Assembly (NCBI GenBank): GCA_016124755.1
Contig: WGNA01000005.1
Coordinates: 242,684-306,683 of the forward strand
Length of the DNA stretch: 64,000 nucleotides
Reading direction: 5' to 3'
Origin: Bacteroidota bacterium
GTDB lineage: Bacteria > Bacteroidota > Bacteroidia > NS11-12g > UBA9320
Shown here: in pieces, positions 29,019-50,609 of the stretch
How the letters are laid out: each line of letters opens with the position of its first letter
How positions within the stretch are numbered: position 1 is the stretch's first letter
Notes under the pieces: model-generated
The model's input: the letters and a program-made list of their open reading frames with translations, nothing else
Databases searched by the model: none
What the model was told of the DNA's origin: nothing
Translations under genes and position numbers: made by a program

Positions 29019-31598
29019 TTAAAATTTGCCCACAATTTTCAGATTTAATCTACGACCTGTAAGATAGTTGGGTACCCCATAAAGATTGTTGTTCAAGTCC
29101 TCAATCCAAATATAGGAGGCTGTATTATTCACCTGCAACAGATTGAATACTTCAAGACTTAACCACAGTGAATTCAATCTGGACAACAGGAGGTTATCCG
29201 GATTTTTGGCCTTTAGAATTTCTTTTGAAAAACCAATATCAACACGCCGGTAAGCAGGCAATTTAAAATGTTCCTCGTATCTGTATGGTCCATTAAAATA
29301 ATAGGGCAGACTTGATCCTATGATTAAACTCAGATTCATTTTGAATGAAGGATCACTTGGCAACTGATCCTGAAATAATACTGAAAACATCACCCGCTGA
29401 TCGGTAGGTCTTCTTATAAATCCACTTTGTTTAACTCCTTCATCATCTGTAAAAGTTATGTTTTCCTTGGTGGAAAGGAATGACAAGTTTACCCATGATT
29501 CCAGCCCCTTTATAAATTCTCCGTTAACCCGAAAATCCGCTCCGCCTGCGTAACCGTATGAAGAATTTACAGCATCATATCTCAGCCTCACGTTATTGAT
29601 TACGTACGGAACCAGATCATTAAGTTTTTTAAAATATGCTTCCCCGATAAAACGGAAATTTCTTCGCCAGGCTTTAAACAAAACATCGGTTCCAAAAACA
29701 AAGTGAATGGATCTTTGAGCTCGTAAGTCGAGGTTCAAAGCTCCCTGAAGATTTCTCAACTCCCGGTAAAAAGGCGGTTGATAATAGTACCCGGAAGCAA
29801 ATCGGAAGGTGATGTTCTTTTTTAAGTTATTCTCGGCAATCGTATCGAGGTCTCCGTAGATTTTCCGCAAACTATCCTTCGCATTAATGCTGGTAAATGA
29901 ATCATACATCATCAGGCAGGCCCGATAGATAGTGTCGTTGTATTTCTTGTTGGGTTGAAATGAAAAATTTCCCCTGGGAGATATTACGTTCTGGCCATTT
30001 AAACTCCAGTAATGTGTTCTGAGGCCAAGGTTAAGACTAAAAGCATTCTCCGGATTAATCATTATCCGATCCTGCACAAATGCCATTAGACGATAGCTGT
30101 GGAGATTAGCTCTGGAAGATACATAATCATCCAAAACAATCTCTCTCGGATCATGACTAAGACTTGTGGTGTTGTATCCCGCTGAATCATTGTAGTTCCA
30201 CTCATGTAACTTGTCATGGATATTCTCAAACTGAACTTTAGAACCCCATTCAAAGTGATGCGAGTAAAGTCCTTTATCAAAGTAATGATTACCTACTAAA
30301 CTGTGTGAAGAAACATCGTACTGAAGTTTGTTTCTCGCATAGTTAATAAAGTAACCATAACCCAGAAGCGCTTTCGCCTGAGCGAAGTTTGCCGATCCAA
30401 GATTGTTTTCCAGTTCTTCTAATCTATAGGCTCCTTCGATTGTATTATACTCCCTCTCATTACTATTAAAATTTGTAGAAATCCACTTCACCGAATTCGT
30501 CTTCCATTTATTTTTATATTCAAGAGTAAAGGCATTTAAGAAAGTGTTGTACTGCATGAGTTCAGATCCGTCGAAGCCAACAAATAATCGAATGGCATTT
30601 TGCAAGGTTCCGAAACTTGTTGACCGGCTTTCGGGAACAACCAGATATTGGTTCTTTGCATAGGTTGTGAAATAATGAGCACTGAATCGGGTATTGATTC
30701 GATAATTAAACATCCCCTGAACATCAACGAACAAGGGTTTGTAATCTCCTGCCACATCAAGTGATTTCAGTACGTACTGAAGTGTTCGGTACCGTACACC
30801 CACCAGATATGAAAATCGTCCGCCTTTAAATGGCTGATCTTCCAGATGAAGACTTGCTCCAAGAATACTAAGGCTTGCGGTTCCTGCAAACTTTGTTGGC
30901 TGACGGTATTGCACATCCAACACAGAAGAAAGCTTGTCACCATACTTAGCCTCAAAACCACCCGCCGAGAAAGTCACTTTTTCGGTAAGGTCTGGATTTA
31001 CGAAACTCAATCCTTCCTGTTGTCCACTTCTCGCCAAAAACGGCCGGTACACCTGAATGCCATTAACATAAATCAGATTCTCATCAAAATTCCCACCTCT
31101 CACATTGTAAGATGATGAGAGTTCATTTGTTCTCGAAATCCCGATAAACTGTTTGGTCAACAAATCTTCGAACTGCAAACTAGGAGTTAGATAGACTTCA
31201 TCTTTTGGGTGAACAACGATCTGAGGTATTTCTGTCCTGATTCTTTCAATGTTTACCTCTTTAGTTGTTTGAACATCCAAGTCAAAAATGAAATCCCGTT
31301 TGAGCCGCTCGCCTGAGTGTTCAATGAGTACCGTCTTTTTAGAAACCTGACTAAAGAAGGTTGCTTTAACAATTGTTTCTTTATTAACAGCGATTTTAAT
31401 TTCAAAGGCTCCGTCTTCTTTGGTTGCCATGGCAAAACTGTCGTTAACATAAATCGCAACCCCTGCTAAAGGAATCATGTCCTGATCCTTTACATGCCCG
31501 TAAACGATGCCCTGACCGTTAGCTCTTGAATGAAAAATTAGAATAATAAATACCGGAAGTGACCAAATCTGCCACGATTGGAGACGGTAGCTCTGCAT
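29019..31598 (-). CDS. TonB-dependent receptor with carboxypeptidase-regulatory-like domain
   Basis: 859 residues. Signal peptide to about 28; CarboxypepD_reg-like Ig domain at about 30-115 (GIVYGHVKDQDMIPLAGVAIYVND); plug domain (SSYNVRGGNFDENLIYVNGIQVYRP); then a 22-strand-type barrel ending in LKIVGKF. No substrate can be read from it and no SusD partner is adjacent, which argues against classic glycan uptake. Its position directly upstream of two PorP/SprF genes and gldKLMN suggests a link to T9SS or the cell surface. Three bases after the rpe stop. Confidence 0.92.
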   Translation of the reverse strand: MQSYRLQSWQIWSLPVFIILIFHSRANGQGIVYGHVKDQDMIPLAGVAIYVNDSFAMATKEDGAFEIKIAVNKETIVKATFFSQVSKKTVLIEHSGERLKRDFIFDLDVQTTKEVNIERIRTEIPQIVVHPKDEVYLTPSLQFEDLLTKQFIGISRTNELSSSYNVRGGNFDENLIYVNGIQVYRPFLARSGQQEGLSFVNPDLTEKVTFSAGGFEAKYGDKLSSVLDVQYRQPTKFAGTASLSILGASLHLEDQPFKGGRFSYLVGVRYRTLQYVLKSLDVAGDYKPLFVDVQGMFNYRINTRFSAHYFTTYAKNQYLVVPESRSTSFGTLQNAIRLFVGFDGSELMQYNTFLNAFTLEYKNKWKTNSVKWISTNFNSNEREYNTIEGAYRLEELENNLGSANFAQAKALLGYGYFINYARNKLQYDVSSHSLVGNHYFDKGLYSHHFEWGSKVQFENIHDKLHEWNYNDSAGYNTTSLSHDPREIVLDDYVSSRANLHSYRLMAFVQDRIMINPENAFSLNLGLRTHYWSLNGQNVISPRGNFSFQPNKKYNDTIYRACLMMYDSFTSINAKDSLRKIYGDLDTIAENNLKKNITFRFASGYYYQPPFYRELRNLQGALNLDLRAQRSIHFVFGTDVLFKAWRRNFRFIGEAYFKKLNDLVPYVINNVRLRYDAVNSSYGYAGGADFRVNGEFIKGLESWVNLSFLSTKENITFTDDEGVKQSGFIRRPTDQRVMFSVLFQDQLPSDPSFKMNLSLIIGSSLPYYFNGPYRYEEHFKLPAYRRVDIGFSKEILKAKNPDNLLLSRLNSLWLSLEVFNLLQVNNTASYIWIEDLNNNLYGVPNYLTGRRLNLKIVGKF

Positions 31599-45815: not shown

Positions 45816-46274
45816 ATGATCCAGCGCATCCAATCTGCTTACCTCTTAGTGGTGTTAATCGGAAGTTTGTTCCTCGTATTTACCGATACCGTTTATTTTG
45901 AAAGTGGCGACGAACCTGCTTCCCATGTAACCGTTGATTTTAATTCAACCGACAACAGTCAGGAACACTTTGAAAATACCCGGTTAATGTATTGGTTGTA
46001 CGCAATTGCCGCCGTCGCATTGATTTCCATTTTCATGTTCCGAAATCGCGGATTTCAGACGAAACTGGTGATGGCAATTATTGCGTTGTGGGTTGTGGTT
46101 TACGTATTTATGTATTCGTATTCCTTGGGGAAAGGATATTTTGATCACGAACAATCCGAGCATTTTACATTCAATGCTCTGATACCTCTGGCACTGTTAA
46201 TTCTCTCCGTTTTGGCGCTCAGAAATATCCGGAAGGATGAAGCTTTGGTTCGTTCAGTGGATCGGTTTCGTTGA
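45816..46274 (+). CDS. DUF4293 membrane protein
   Basis: 152 residues with four membrane helices (about 5-25, 52-72, 78-98, 118-140). The N-terminus MIQRIQSAYLL is the hallmark of this Bacteroidota-specific family. Function unknown. The stop codon overlaps the start of the following ABC ATPase (TGATG), so the two are translationally coupled, which may or may not mean a shared role. Confidence 0.88.
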   Translation: MIQRIQSAYLLVVLIGSLFLVFTDTVYFESGDEPASHVTVDFNSTDNSQEHFENTRLMYWLYAIAAVALISIFMFRNRGFQTKLVMAIIALWVVVYVFMYSYSLGKGYFDHEQSEHFTFNALIPLALLILSVLALRNIRKDEALVRSVDRFR

Positions 46275-47932
46275 TGCGATCCTTATTAAAAGTTGAAAAT
46301 CTTTCGGTTTCCTTTCAACAGGGAAATAAATTAAATACCGTTGTTCAAAATTTTTCAATCGACCTGAAACCGGGTGAGATTTGCGGCATCGTTGGTGAAT
46401 CCGGTTCTGGTAAAAGTGTGAGTTGTATGAGTCTCACACATCTTATTAAAAACGCAATCACTAAAGCAGATAAAATTCTGTTTTCACCTGATTCGGATTC
46501 CGAATACAATCTTTTAAACACGGAGGAAGAAAGGCTCAGAGCTATCCGGGGAAATCAGATCAGTTATGTTTTTCAGGAACCCATGACTGCGCTCCATCCA
46601 CTCTTTACATGCGGTGAACAGTTGATGGAAGGAATTCTGATTCATCAAAAAATTTCTAAAGTTGAAGCCCGTAAAAAGGTGATTGAACTCTTTGGAGAAA
46701 TGTCTTTACCCGATCCGGAAATAGCATTCGGATCCTATCCTCACGAACTTTCCGGCGGACAAAGACAACGGGTGATGATTGCCATGGCGTTGTCCAATAA
46801 TCCAAACCTTATAATTGCCGATGAACCCACAACGGCGTTAGACAGTATTCTTCAAAATGAGCTTACACGGAAAATGGTTGGTAGTTGCAAAAGCCGCAAC
46901 GCAGGACTTATTCTGATTTCGCACGACATCAACCTCATTCGCGAATTCACTTCCAACATTATGGTAATGTATAAAGGTCGGATTATGGAAAGCGGGGAGT
47001 CTGTTGATGTGGTTACCAAACCCAAAAGTCCGTACACGAAAAGTCTGTTGTTGTGTCAGCCAACTTTTAGTCGTAAAAATCACAAACTGCCAACCTTACC
47101 TGACCTCACGGAAAACAGAGATGGTGAATTGGTCGAAAAGCTATATACCGATTCAGAATTTGAAACCGTTCAGATCGACTACTCCTCTTCCATTTTAGCA
47201 GTAAGAAACCTCACGAAAACTTTTATACGAGGAAATACTGCGAGAAAGGTAGTTGATGATGTGAGTTTTGAGATGTTTAAAGGGGAAACTCTTGGATTGG
47301 TTGGAGAATCGGGTTGCGGAAAAAGCACGGTTTCCAAAATCATTATGAAGATGTTGAAACAGGACTCCGGCGAAATCATCTATCCAAAAAACGAATCCAA
47401 TTCTACCGCAGGTTTTGCCCGACAGGTGCAAATGATTTTTCAGGATCCATACTCTTCATTGAATCCGGTTTTAAAAGCAGGCGAAATGCTGGAGGAAGTT
47501 TTAGCCGTTCACAATTTAATTAACACCAAATCCGGTCGCAGAGAAAAAGTGAATAGTCTTCTACATGAAGTTGGCTTGAGTGATTTGGATGCTACTAAAT
47601 ATCCGCATCAGTTTTCGGGCGGACAAAGACAAAGGTTGAGTATCGCAAGAGCTTTGGCAGTTGACCCGGAAATAATTATTTGTGATGAATCGGTTTCGGC
47701 TTTGGATATTTCCGTTCAGGCGCAAATCCTGAATTTATTCAACACTTTAAAAATTAAACGCGGCCTCACCTACCTGTTTATTTCACACGATATGAATGTT
47801 GTCACCTATTTGTGCGATCGGATAATGGTAATGCGAAACGGAAAAATAATTGAGCAGAACAAGACGGGGCATTTAGTTCATTCTCCGGAATCAAGTTATA
47901 CAAAAACCCTGATGGCTGCCATGAACGATTAA
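46274..47932 (+). CDS. Double ABC ATPase of a dipeptide/oligopeptide-type transporter
   Basis: 552 residues from ATG at 46274, with two complete ABC domains. Domain 1: Walker A GESGSGKS, FQEPMTALHPLFTCGEQ, LSGGQRQRVMIAMALS, IIADEPTTALD. Domain 2: GESGCGKS, MIFQDPYSSLNPVLKAGE, FSGGQRQRLSIARALA, IICDESVSALDISVQ. This is the fused DppD-DppF (YejF-like) arrangement of peptide or nickel importers; permeases and binding protein are not in the window. Overlaps DUF4293 by one base. Confidence 0.93.
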   Translation: MRSLLKVENLSVSFQQGNKLNTVVQNFSIDLKPGEICGIVGESGSGKSVSCMSLTHLIKNAITKADKILFSPDSDSEYNLLNTEEERLRAIRGNQISYVFQEPMTALHPLFTCGEQLMEGILIHQKISKVEARKKVIELFGEMSLPDPEIAFGSYPHELSGGQRQRVMIAMALSNNPNLIIADEPTTALDSILQNELTRKMVGSCKSRNAGLILISHDINLIREFTSNIMVMYKGRIMESGESVDVVTKPKSPYTKSLLLCQPTFSRKNHKLPTLPDLTENRDGELVEKLYTDSEFETVQIDYSSSILAVRNLTKTFIRGNTARKVVDDVSFEMFKGETLGLVGESGCGKSTVSKIIMKMLKQDSGEIIYPKNESNSTAGFARQVQMIFQDPYSSLNPVLKAGEMLEEVLAVHNLINTKSGRREKVNSLLHEVGLSDLDATKYPHQFSGGQRQRLSIARALAVDPEIIICDESVSALDISVQAQILNLFNTLKIKRGLTYLFISHDMNVVTYLCDRIMVMRNGKIIEQNKTGHLVHSPESSYTKTLMAAMND

Positions 47933-48082
47933 AAGCAGTCATTTCATTTTTTGGCAAGCCTATCAATTCTAAAAGTGATATCCTCCCATCCTTTTCACGT
48001 GTCTTCAATAAAAAAAACAAACACGCCTTTCACTATCACACCAAAGTTGTATTTTAGCCAACCTTTTTATCTATAAAAACAA

Positions 48083-48204
48083 CCAGAAGATACCGGACGT
48101 AGATCGTAAACCAACGTCCGGTCTTCTGGAAGCAATCAACTGAAAACGCTTTGCCAAAAGGCAGGATAGTAGTTTACGGGGTCCGATTTCTTTAAATCGA
48201 AATC
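48083..48204 (+). ncRNA. Candidate structured RNA with a loop pseudoknot
   Basis: Stem 1a pairs CCAGAAGA (48083-48090) with TCTTCTGG (48122-48129); after a TA bulge, stem 1b pairs CCGGACGT (48093-48100) with ACGTCCGG (48114-48121): 16 bp in total, all Watson-Crick. The 13-base loop holds CGTAAAC (48105-48111), exactly complementary to GTTTACG at 48172-48178. Between them is a small hairpin TGCC-AAAA-GGCA (48152-48163), and after the pseudoknot a hairpin GATTTC/GAAATC (48185-48204). This architecture is far beyond chance for unselected sequence, but I cannot match it to a known riboswitch, ribozyme or 6S/tmRNA. Strand is assigned from the weak promoter upstream; free-standing RNA or rnr leader are both possible. 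Confidence 0.6.
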
Positions 48205-48437
48205 ATAAACTCTCATCCTTTTTATTATTCCCTATTTACCTTCAAACCGGGAAATATGGATTCTAAAGGATTAGCCGGATTATTCCTTAACGGGTTACTA
48301 TTATATTCCGGTCAATTTACAGAAGGCCATTTATCCTGCTCAACTATCAATGGTTCAAAGTTGATTTAATGTTCAACGGGTGAAAATGACAACACGAACT
48401 TTATGAACTGATATTCGTCAATCCATCTCTTCATTCA

Positions 48438-48445
48438 TACCTTTG
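48438..48445 (+). promoter_or_regulatory. Putative -7 promoter element of rnr
   Basis: TACCTTTG, full match to TAnnTTTG, 13 bases before the rnr ATG; leader would be under 10 nt. If used, the RNA at 48083-48204 is not part of this transcript. Confidence 0.55.
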
Positions 48446-48458
48446 AACGAACTCTCAG

Positions 48459-50609
48459 ATGCCGCACAAAAAGTCAAGAAGTCCGAAAAAGAATAAAGTC
48501 GGGAAAAAGCAGCAGCTTCCATATCAATATCGTGAGGTGCTCGAATTTTTCAGAGGACACCCGCGAAAGACTTTCAACTACAAACAAATCTGCCATCAGC
48601 TGGATATCCGATCAACTGAAGTTAAAACTGAAGTGATCCGAATCCTCAATATGATGGAGAAGGAAGAAATTATCGAGGCAGTTGCTCCGGGTAAATTCAG
48701 GTACCTGCCGGATTTCAGCATCATGACCGGCAGAGTGGAAATTACATCGCGCGGTGCAGCTTTCGTAATCGTTGATGAACTGGAGGAAGATGTTCATGTA
48801 AGTCCGTCATTGACCGGACAGGCATTTAACGGCGACATTGTTTCAGTTGAATTGCTTCATCAGAAAAAAGGCCGACGTCCGGAGGGAAGAATTATTGAGG
48901 TTTTGGAGCGGGCTAAAACGCAGTTCGTCGGCACCATTCAGATGATGCGAAAATTTGCCTTTCTGGTACCGGATAACAGTCGCATTCACGTTGATTTCTT
49001 TATTGACAGAAAATCTCTAAAAGGTTGTAAAGACGGCGATAAAGCTCTGGTTGAATTTATCGACTGGCCTCCCGGATCTCCGAACCCGAATGCTTTTGTT
49101 GTTGAAGTGCTCGGGCAGGCAGGTGAGCACAATACGGAAATGCACGCCATCATTGCGGAGTTTGGTTTTAAAACTTCTTTTGAGCGGGAAGTTGAAGAAG
49201 AAGCCGAAGCATTTTCCGGCGTTATCTCTCAAGATGAAACAAAGAAGCGTCGTGATTTCCGGGATATTTTCACCATCACGATTGACCCGGAAGATGCCAA
49301 AGATTTTGACGACGCAATTTCATATCAGATCCTTCCGAATAACCATTTGGAAATAGGAGTTCACATTGCCGATGTTTCCCATTATGTAACAGAGGGAAGT
49401 CTGCTCGATCATGAAGCGTACGAACGAGGAACCTCGGTTTATTTAGTTGACCGAACCGTTCCGATGTTACCCGAAAGACTTTCAAATGATCTCTGTTCAT
49501 TGCGACCACACGAAGACCGGTTGGCGTATTCGGTAATTTTTGAGATGGGATCAGGTGGTAAAATTTTCGATTACTGGATCGGTAAAACGGTTATTCATTC
49601 GAATCACAGATTCTCTTACGAAGAGGCACAGGAAGTTATTGAAGGTAACAGTGAATTACACGCGAAAGAAATCCGCGACCTGAACCGAATTGCGACCATA
49701 CTCAGGAAAAAGCGATTTGCAAACGGTTCGATTGCTTTCGAATCGGATGAGTTTCGTTTCAAGCTCGATGCGGAAGGTCGGCCTTTAGAAGTGATAAAAA
49801 AGATCCGCAAAGAAGCACATCTCATGATCGAAGATTTCATGTTGTTGGCAAATAAAACCGTGGCTAAACATGTGTCCGATCATTATAAAGATCAGGTAAT
49901 TCCATACCGCGTACACGATGCCCCGAACCCCGAAAAAATGGAAAACTTCATTTCGACCGCCAAAAAATTCGGGTACATTATTAATACGCAAAGTCACAAG
50001 ACCATTAGCGACACGATTAATAAAATGGTTGAGGAAACTGAAGGCAAAATAGAAGCGAACATTCTTCATCCATTAGCGATCCGAAGCATGGAAAAAGCTT
50101 TTTACACGACTAAAGAAACATCACACTTCGGCCTGGCTTTCGATTATTACACGCACTTCACCAGCCCCATCAGACGGTATCCCGATTTATTAGTTCACCG
50201 ATTATTATTCTTATATCAATCGGGAAGAAAATACGGTCGTAAAGATCAGATCGAGAAAGCCTGCGCCCATAGTTCTAAAATGGAAGTTCAGGCGAGTTTG
50301 GCTGAACGGGCATCGGTAAAATACAAGCAAATCGAATTTCTCAGTGAACACGTTGGCGAAGAATTCAACGGTATTATTTCCGGTGTTACCGAATGGGGAA
50401 TATACGTAGAACTTGACGACAACCACTGTGAAGGCATGATTCGTATTGCCGACCTCAAGGATGATTTTTACGAATTCTACGAAAAGGAAATGGCGGTTGT
50501 TGGAAGGAAAAACAAAAGAAGATTCACCTTTGGAGACCCCGTTACAATTCAAGTTAAAAAAGCAAATCTGAATAAGAGAATTATTGATTTTTCAATGGTT
50601 TATGAGTGA
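48459..50609 (+). CDS. rnr: Ribonuclease R
   Basis: 716 residues. Lys-rich N-terminus (residues 1-18), winged-helix-like region, two cold-shock/OB domains (about 80-230), RNB catalytic domain with FTITIDPEDAKDFDDAI holding the metal-binding aspartates, HIADVSHYVTEGSLLD and HFTSPIRRYPDLLVHRLL, and a C-terminal S1 domain (FNGIISGVTEWGIYVELDD). A 3'-5' exoribonuclease that degrades structured RNA. Stop overlaps the start of the next gene. Confidence 0.96.
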   Translation: MPHKKSRSPKKNKVGKKQQLPYQYREVLEFFRGHPRKTFNYKQICHQLDIRSTEVKTEVIRILNMMEKEEIIEAVAPGKFRYLPDFSIMTGRVEITSRGAAFVIVDELEEDVHVSPSLTGQAFNGDIVSVELLHQKKGRRPEGRIIEVLERAKTQFVGTIQMMRKFAFLVPDNSRIHVDFFIDRKSLKGCKDGDKALVEFIDWPPGSPNPNAFVVEVLGQAGEHNTEMHAIIAEFGFKTSFEREVEEEAEAFSGVISQDETKKRRDFRDIFTITIDPEDAKDFDDAISYQILPNNHLEIGVHIADVSHYVTEGSLLDHEAYERGTSVYLVDRTVPMLPERLSNDLCSLRPHEDRLAYSVIFEMGSGGKIFDYWIGKTVIHSNHRFSYEEAQEVIEGNSELHAKEIRDLNRIATILRKKRFANGSIAFESDEFRFKLDAEGRPLEVIKKIRKEAHLMIEDFMLLANKTVAKHVSDHYKDQVIPYRVHDAPNPEKMENFISTAKKFGYIINTQSHKTISDTINKMVEETEGKIEANILHPLAIRSMEKAFYTTKETSHFGLAFDYYTHFTSPIRRYPDLLVHRLLFLYQSGRKYGRKDQIEKACAHSSKMEVQASLAERASVKYKQIEFLSEHVGEEFNGIISGVTEWGIYVELDDNHCEGMIRIADLKDDFYEFYEKEMAVVGRKNKRRFTFGDPVTIQVKKANLNKRIIDFSMVYE

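Follow-up and report, generated by a model that had tools for sequence, protein, structure and literature searches.

The 64,000-nucleotide stretch of Bacteroidota DNA analysed here (the window) contains a long intergenic region between a gene for a fused peptide ABC transporter ATPase and rnr, the gene for RNase R, which is followed by genes for a polyprenyl synthetase and a lipoate ligase (Table 1). The RNase R relatives that we found on GTDB contigs are all at most 50% identical to the protein encoded here in their best segment. Together with the promoter type, the relatives of this RNase R place the genome in the Bacteroidota. The pairing of a peptide-ABC ATPase gene with rnr (46271-50609 of the window) is widely conserved in Bacteroidota, and we conclude that this gene pair is old and widespread. 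The gap between the two genes is usually about 10-200 nt in relatives, compared with 526 nt here; in the closest genus that we read it spans 75-206 nt or, in one case (L030), holds an inserted transposase. When we ranked sampled long intergenic regions by folding strength, the ABC-rnr region came fourth of 76. Elsewhere in the window, positions 29019-31598 of the minus strand hold an 859-aa open reading frame with no Pfam match at E<=1e-10.

Table 1. Genes, hairpins and sequence motifs at the ABC-rnr locus (window coordinates).
Feature	Position	Strand	Remarks
ABC gene	46271..47932	+	fused peptide ABC transporter ATPase (two ABC_tran domains, oligo_HPY); domain matches
Intergenic region	47933-48458		526 bp, ABC transporter ATPase gene to rnr; contains hp1 and hp2
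U-tract UUGUUUUUA	48074..48082	-	directly 3' of hp1; 7 U in 9
Hairpin 1 (hp1)	48083..48129	-	intrinsic-terminator-like stem-loop; -27.3 kcal/mol on the minus strand, -24.1 on the plus strand
CGTAAAC	48105..48111	+	proposed pseudoknot strand in the hp1 loop; chance of such a match about 3%
Small hairpin TTGCC-AAAA-GGCAG	48151..48164	+	z -1.2, within chance
Hairpin 2 (hp2), AGGATAGTAGTTTA...TAAACTCTCATCCT with internal loops	48163..48219	+	terminator-like on the plus strand
GTTTACG	48172..48178	+	complement of the hp1 loop motif, also within the hp2 5' arm
U-tract UUUUAUUAUUC	48220..48230	+	after hp2
-7 box TACCTTTG	48438..48445	+	perfect TAnnTTTG; putative rnr promoter, 21 nt before the start codon
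rnr	48459..50609	+	RNase R (RNB, cold-shock, S1 domains); domain matches

Hairpin hp1 combines two sets of eight Watson-Crick pairs (8+8) with a bulge of 2 nt (TA) on its 5' arm and a loop of 13 nt, AGATCGTAAACCA. When it is read on the minus strand, apical pairs that include G-U add to these 16. We compared its stability with that of shuffled sequences and found none as stable among 200 shuffles (z -5.5 on the plus strand, -6.9 on the minus strand), confirming the 16-pair hairpin that a sequence-only reading of this DNA had reported. In 464 kb of the same genome we counted five hairpins with at least 16 pairs, hp1 among them. The plus-strand side of hp1 carries no U-tract; on the minus strand, UUGUUUUUA follows the stem directly. 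At least seven T are found in 0.8% of the nine-mers in the genome sample, compared with about 2% in the ABC-rnr intergenic region (2.5% on its minus strand). A simple terminator scan did not list hp1: the scan accepts loops of 3-8 nt and an unbroken stem, compared with the 13-nt loop and bulge of hp1, and these limits are a convention of the tool rather than a defining feature. What characterizes an intrinsic terminator, a stable hairpin with a U-rich tract directly 3' of its stem, is present in hp1. Among the other strong intergenic hairpins in the genome sample, five of six carry terminator-type A-runs and T-runs. Strong hairpins with A-runs and T-runs (21, 17 and 13 pairs) also occur clustered in a single 790-nt intergenic region of another locus (L155:8481-9051; G000:C31), where two of them have the same arm, GCCTCTGA.

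The second hairpin, hp2, begins 231 nt past the ABC stop codon and is more stable when read on the minus strand (-19.6, z -5.0) than on the plus strand (-14.0, z -2.5). In the plus-strand reading UUUUAUUAU comes after it, so that the U-tract expected of an intrinsic terminator is found here as well. The hairpin previously described at this place exists, but it is only the tip of the larger hp2. The AAAA-loop hairpin described between the two proposed pseudoknot strands is likewise present, at about 48151-48164, but its stability does not exceed chance. From their anatomy, hp1 would be predicted to terminate minus-strand transcription, and hp2, as a poorer candidate, plus-strand transcription.

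Taken as a whole, the 149-nt element folds strongly on its minus strand (-57.0, z -6.2, with none of 200 shuffles as stable) and also on its plus strand (-46.4, z -5.1). Much of the difference between the strands reflects the higher G and U content of the minus strand; after correction for composition it is small (z -5.9 on the minus strand versus -5.1 on the plus strand). The strong intergenic structure noted earlier is thus supported, but that description viewed one strand and missed the U-tracts. The best promoter boxes on either strand are no better than those in random stretches, and upstream of the element we found no minus-strand promoter above chance and no minus-strand gene of ordinary size that hp1 could terminate. 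Within the element the minus strand also contains a reading frame of 26 aa, MRVYDFDLKKSDPVNYYPAFWQSVFS; we found no convincing homologue for it and set it aside as a chance frame.

The sequence-only reading had paired the loop motif CGTAAAC of hp1 with GTTTACG downstream to form a pseudoknot. The two motifs are exactly complementary. Loop matches of 7 nt or more, however, are present in 3.0% of shuffled downstream sequences and, within the window, in 22 of 634 real 100-nt stretches; neither figure is corrected for the reader having been free to choose between motifs. Because GTTTACG lies in the 5' arm of hp2, the pseudoknot and hp2 are mutually exclusive. Leaving both pseudoknot strands unpaired lowers the stability of the plus strand to -41.3, compared with -46.4 for the nested fold. 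The 7-bp helix would contribute -5.8, for a total of -47.1 that does not yet include a penalty for the pseudoknot loops, and the pseudoknot therefore brings no net energy gain. The corresponding minus-strand values are -57.0 for the nested fold and -43.7 with the pseudoknot strands free. As the proposed pseudoknot is expected about 3% of the time by chance, is not energetically favoured and competes with hp2, we consider it unsupported and take the loop complementarity as probably incidental. The GTCCG at 48181-48185, suggested to replace one side of stem 1b, repeats five letters of the arm of that stem, which does not amount to evidence for a switch.

We next consider the position of the element relative to the start of rnr. 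TAnnTTTG is the -7 consensus of Bacteroidota (PMC7366714, PMC9723704), and the perfect copy before rnr lies 219 nt downstream of the hp1/hp2 element. A TAnnTTTG box stands 7-15 nt before a candidate rnr start codon in 14 of the 29 relatives that we read. Where the ABC gene of a relative stops no more than about 50 nt short of rnr, the box is missing from this position, which is what an operon would predict; where the two genes lie apart, rnr usually has the box, again 7-15 nt ahead of the start codon. Since the putative rnr promoter lies downstream of the element, the element would not be part of the rnr leader. The cis-regulatory role for rnr that had been proposed is thus unsupported: the element sits upstream of an apparent promoter box that recurs in relatives. 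The useful result is in this respect a negative one, namely that the element is not an rnr leader and that its pseudoknot is unsupported.

Searches for related sequences returned no homologue in the collections covered, in which all genomes other than the element's own belong to other genera. A search of both strands against Rfam, at the gathering score and at E<=10, gave no family and only weak chance matches, in agreement with the earlier statement that the structure has no recognised family. No tRNA or tmRNA was detected, and 6S RNA (RF00013) had no match in the window or the genome. A repeat search showed the element to be unique in its own genome, with hp1 in single copy. BLAST against 58 relatives gave only short chance matches, as did searches of phages and plasmids; viral contigs shared no exact 21-mer with the element. 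We then built a covariance model from a single sequence, the minus strand of the element, and found no homologue in its own genome, 147 relatives and 395 genomes of the class. The model matched the element itself and, weakly, its own opposite-strand palindrome, and four further matches at E 0.2-0.5 are at the level of chance for 147 genomes. The same model found nothing at the rnr loci of relatives, where the sequence-only reading had proposed looking for the same arrangement. As a control, a model of the same kind built from the genome's SRP RNA found SRP in 54 of 58 relatives, indicating that the approach is sound, with the reservation that SRP is conserved to an exceptional degree. Conservation in related species is common for Bacteroidota intergenic sRNAs but not obligatory; we did not observe it for this element in the genomes searched.

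Of the readings considered, the likeliest, which we put forward tentatively, is that hp1 is a minus-strand Rho-independent terminator whose most probable role is to end an intergenic RNA, about 150 nt long and specific to this lineage. The candidate RNA would run from about 48222 down to 48074, with hp2 at its 5' side and a weakly structured linker in between, and would close with the 16-bp hairpin as terminator and a U-tail. The sequence itself shows the anatomy of a terminator; transcription, start site and any target of the RNA we infer. Several observations point to a minus-strand terminator: hp1 is followed directly by UUGUUUUUA and has no U-tract on its plus-strand side, hp1 and hp2 are each more stable in the minus-strand reading (-27.3 versus -24.1 for hp1, -19.6 versus -14.0 for hp2), and A-runs and T-runs accompany all but one of the six other strong intergenic hairpins in the sample. 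That the terminator would end an sRNA is suggested by the strong minus-strand fold of the 149-nt element, by the lack of an ordinary-size minus-strand gene upstream of hp1, and by the order of hairpin, linker and terminal terminator within about 150 nt, as in GibS-type sRNAs. Against an sRNA we count the absence of a minus-strand promoter above chance, the small corrected strand advantage, and the lack of a homologue in the searched collections.

Nearly as likely is that the two hairpins form an outward-facing pair of terminators that insulates the transcription units, with no discrete sRNA. In such an arrangement hp2 and its U-tract would stop plus-strand read-through from the ABC-transporter operon, and hp1 and its U-tract would stop antisense transcription from the rnr side. 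The U-tracts do face outward on both hairpins, strong hairpins elsewhere in the genome are mostly terminator-like, and no promoter was found for a separate RNA; with the ABC gene on the plus strand and rnr equipped with its own promoter box, a barrier between them would also be sensible. On the other hand, a start 231 nt past the ABC stop is far for a simple operon terminator, the plus-strand stability of hp2 is only moderate, and no client is known that a minus-strand terminator could serve. We think it unlikely that the element instead encodes a plus-strand sRNA of about 160 nt, transcribed from a weak box, TATTTTAG (48050), starting near 48063 and ending at hp2 and its U-tract. That box matches the -7 consensus at 5/6 and is correctly positioned, the plus strand of the element as a whole forms a stable fold and a U-tract follows hp2, but a promoter score of at least 7 is reached in most random stretches of equal length, and hp2 is the poorer hairpin on this strand.

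Two further kinds of explanation appear less plausible. We regard it as quite improbable that a mobile element carrying palindromes (REP/RAYT, IS200-type or MITE) entered the ABC-rnr gap and that the present sequence is its relic or a non-coding version of it. The unusually long gap would fit an insertion, and so would the ABC-rnr gap of L030 (G017:C5:453689-458809), in which an IS200-like Y1 (RAYT-type) transposase gene lies between two nearly identical long perfect palindromes, GACACTGTCCGTAGTCTGAGACTACGGACAGTGTC upstream of the gene and a shorter copy downstream. However, hp1 is present once in its genome, the three Y1 transposase loci of that genome lack such hairpins, and neither L030 palindrome resembles hp1. 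The original proposal of a pseudoknotted cis-regulatory RNA (a riboswitch, switch or ribozyme) controlling rnr now seems very unlikely to be correct. An exact 7-nt match that is exclusive with hp2 makes a two-state fold of the plus strand formally possible, but the chance frequency of such a match, the missing energy gain, the location of the element upstream of both a U-tract and rnr's own recurrent promoter box, and its absence from every relative searched all count against it. We would give equally little credence to a genus-restricted structured RNA in which hp2 and the loop-downstream pairing alternate, and so switch a plus-strand terminator and with it read-through of the ABC operon towards rnr.

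Compared with known systems, hp1 on the minus strand and hp2 on the plus strand share with intrinsic terminators a strong hairpin and an immediate U-rich tract. As a predicted terminator, hp1 differs from them in its 13-nt nominal loop, part of which is taken up by additional pairing in the minus-strand reading, in its 2-nt bulge, and in having no client gene on the minus strand. With REP/RAYT or IS200-type palindromes, hp1 shares the form of a long intergenic palindrome with a bulge, and a relative has a RAYT-like locus in the ABC-rnr gap; unlike them, hp1 has no linked transposase and is in single copy. GibS is an intergenic sRNA of Bacteroidota of roughly 145 nt (PMC7366714). The candidate RNA differs from sRNAs of the GibS and Rfp18 type in lacking a recognisable promoter and conservation, homology having been compared via Rfam only. 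It resembles GibS of B. thetaiotaomicron and Rfp18 of F. psychrophilum in its length of about 150 nt, its hairpin or hairpins with a 3' terminator, and its intergenic location. If an sRNA does end at hp1, it would represent no new class, but would add one more lineage-specific sRNA to those of Bacteroidota, in this case beside the gene for an RNA-degrading enzyme.
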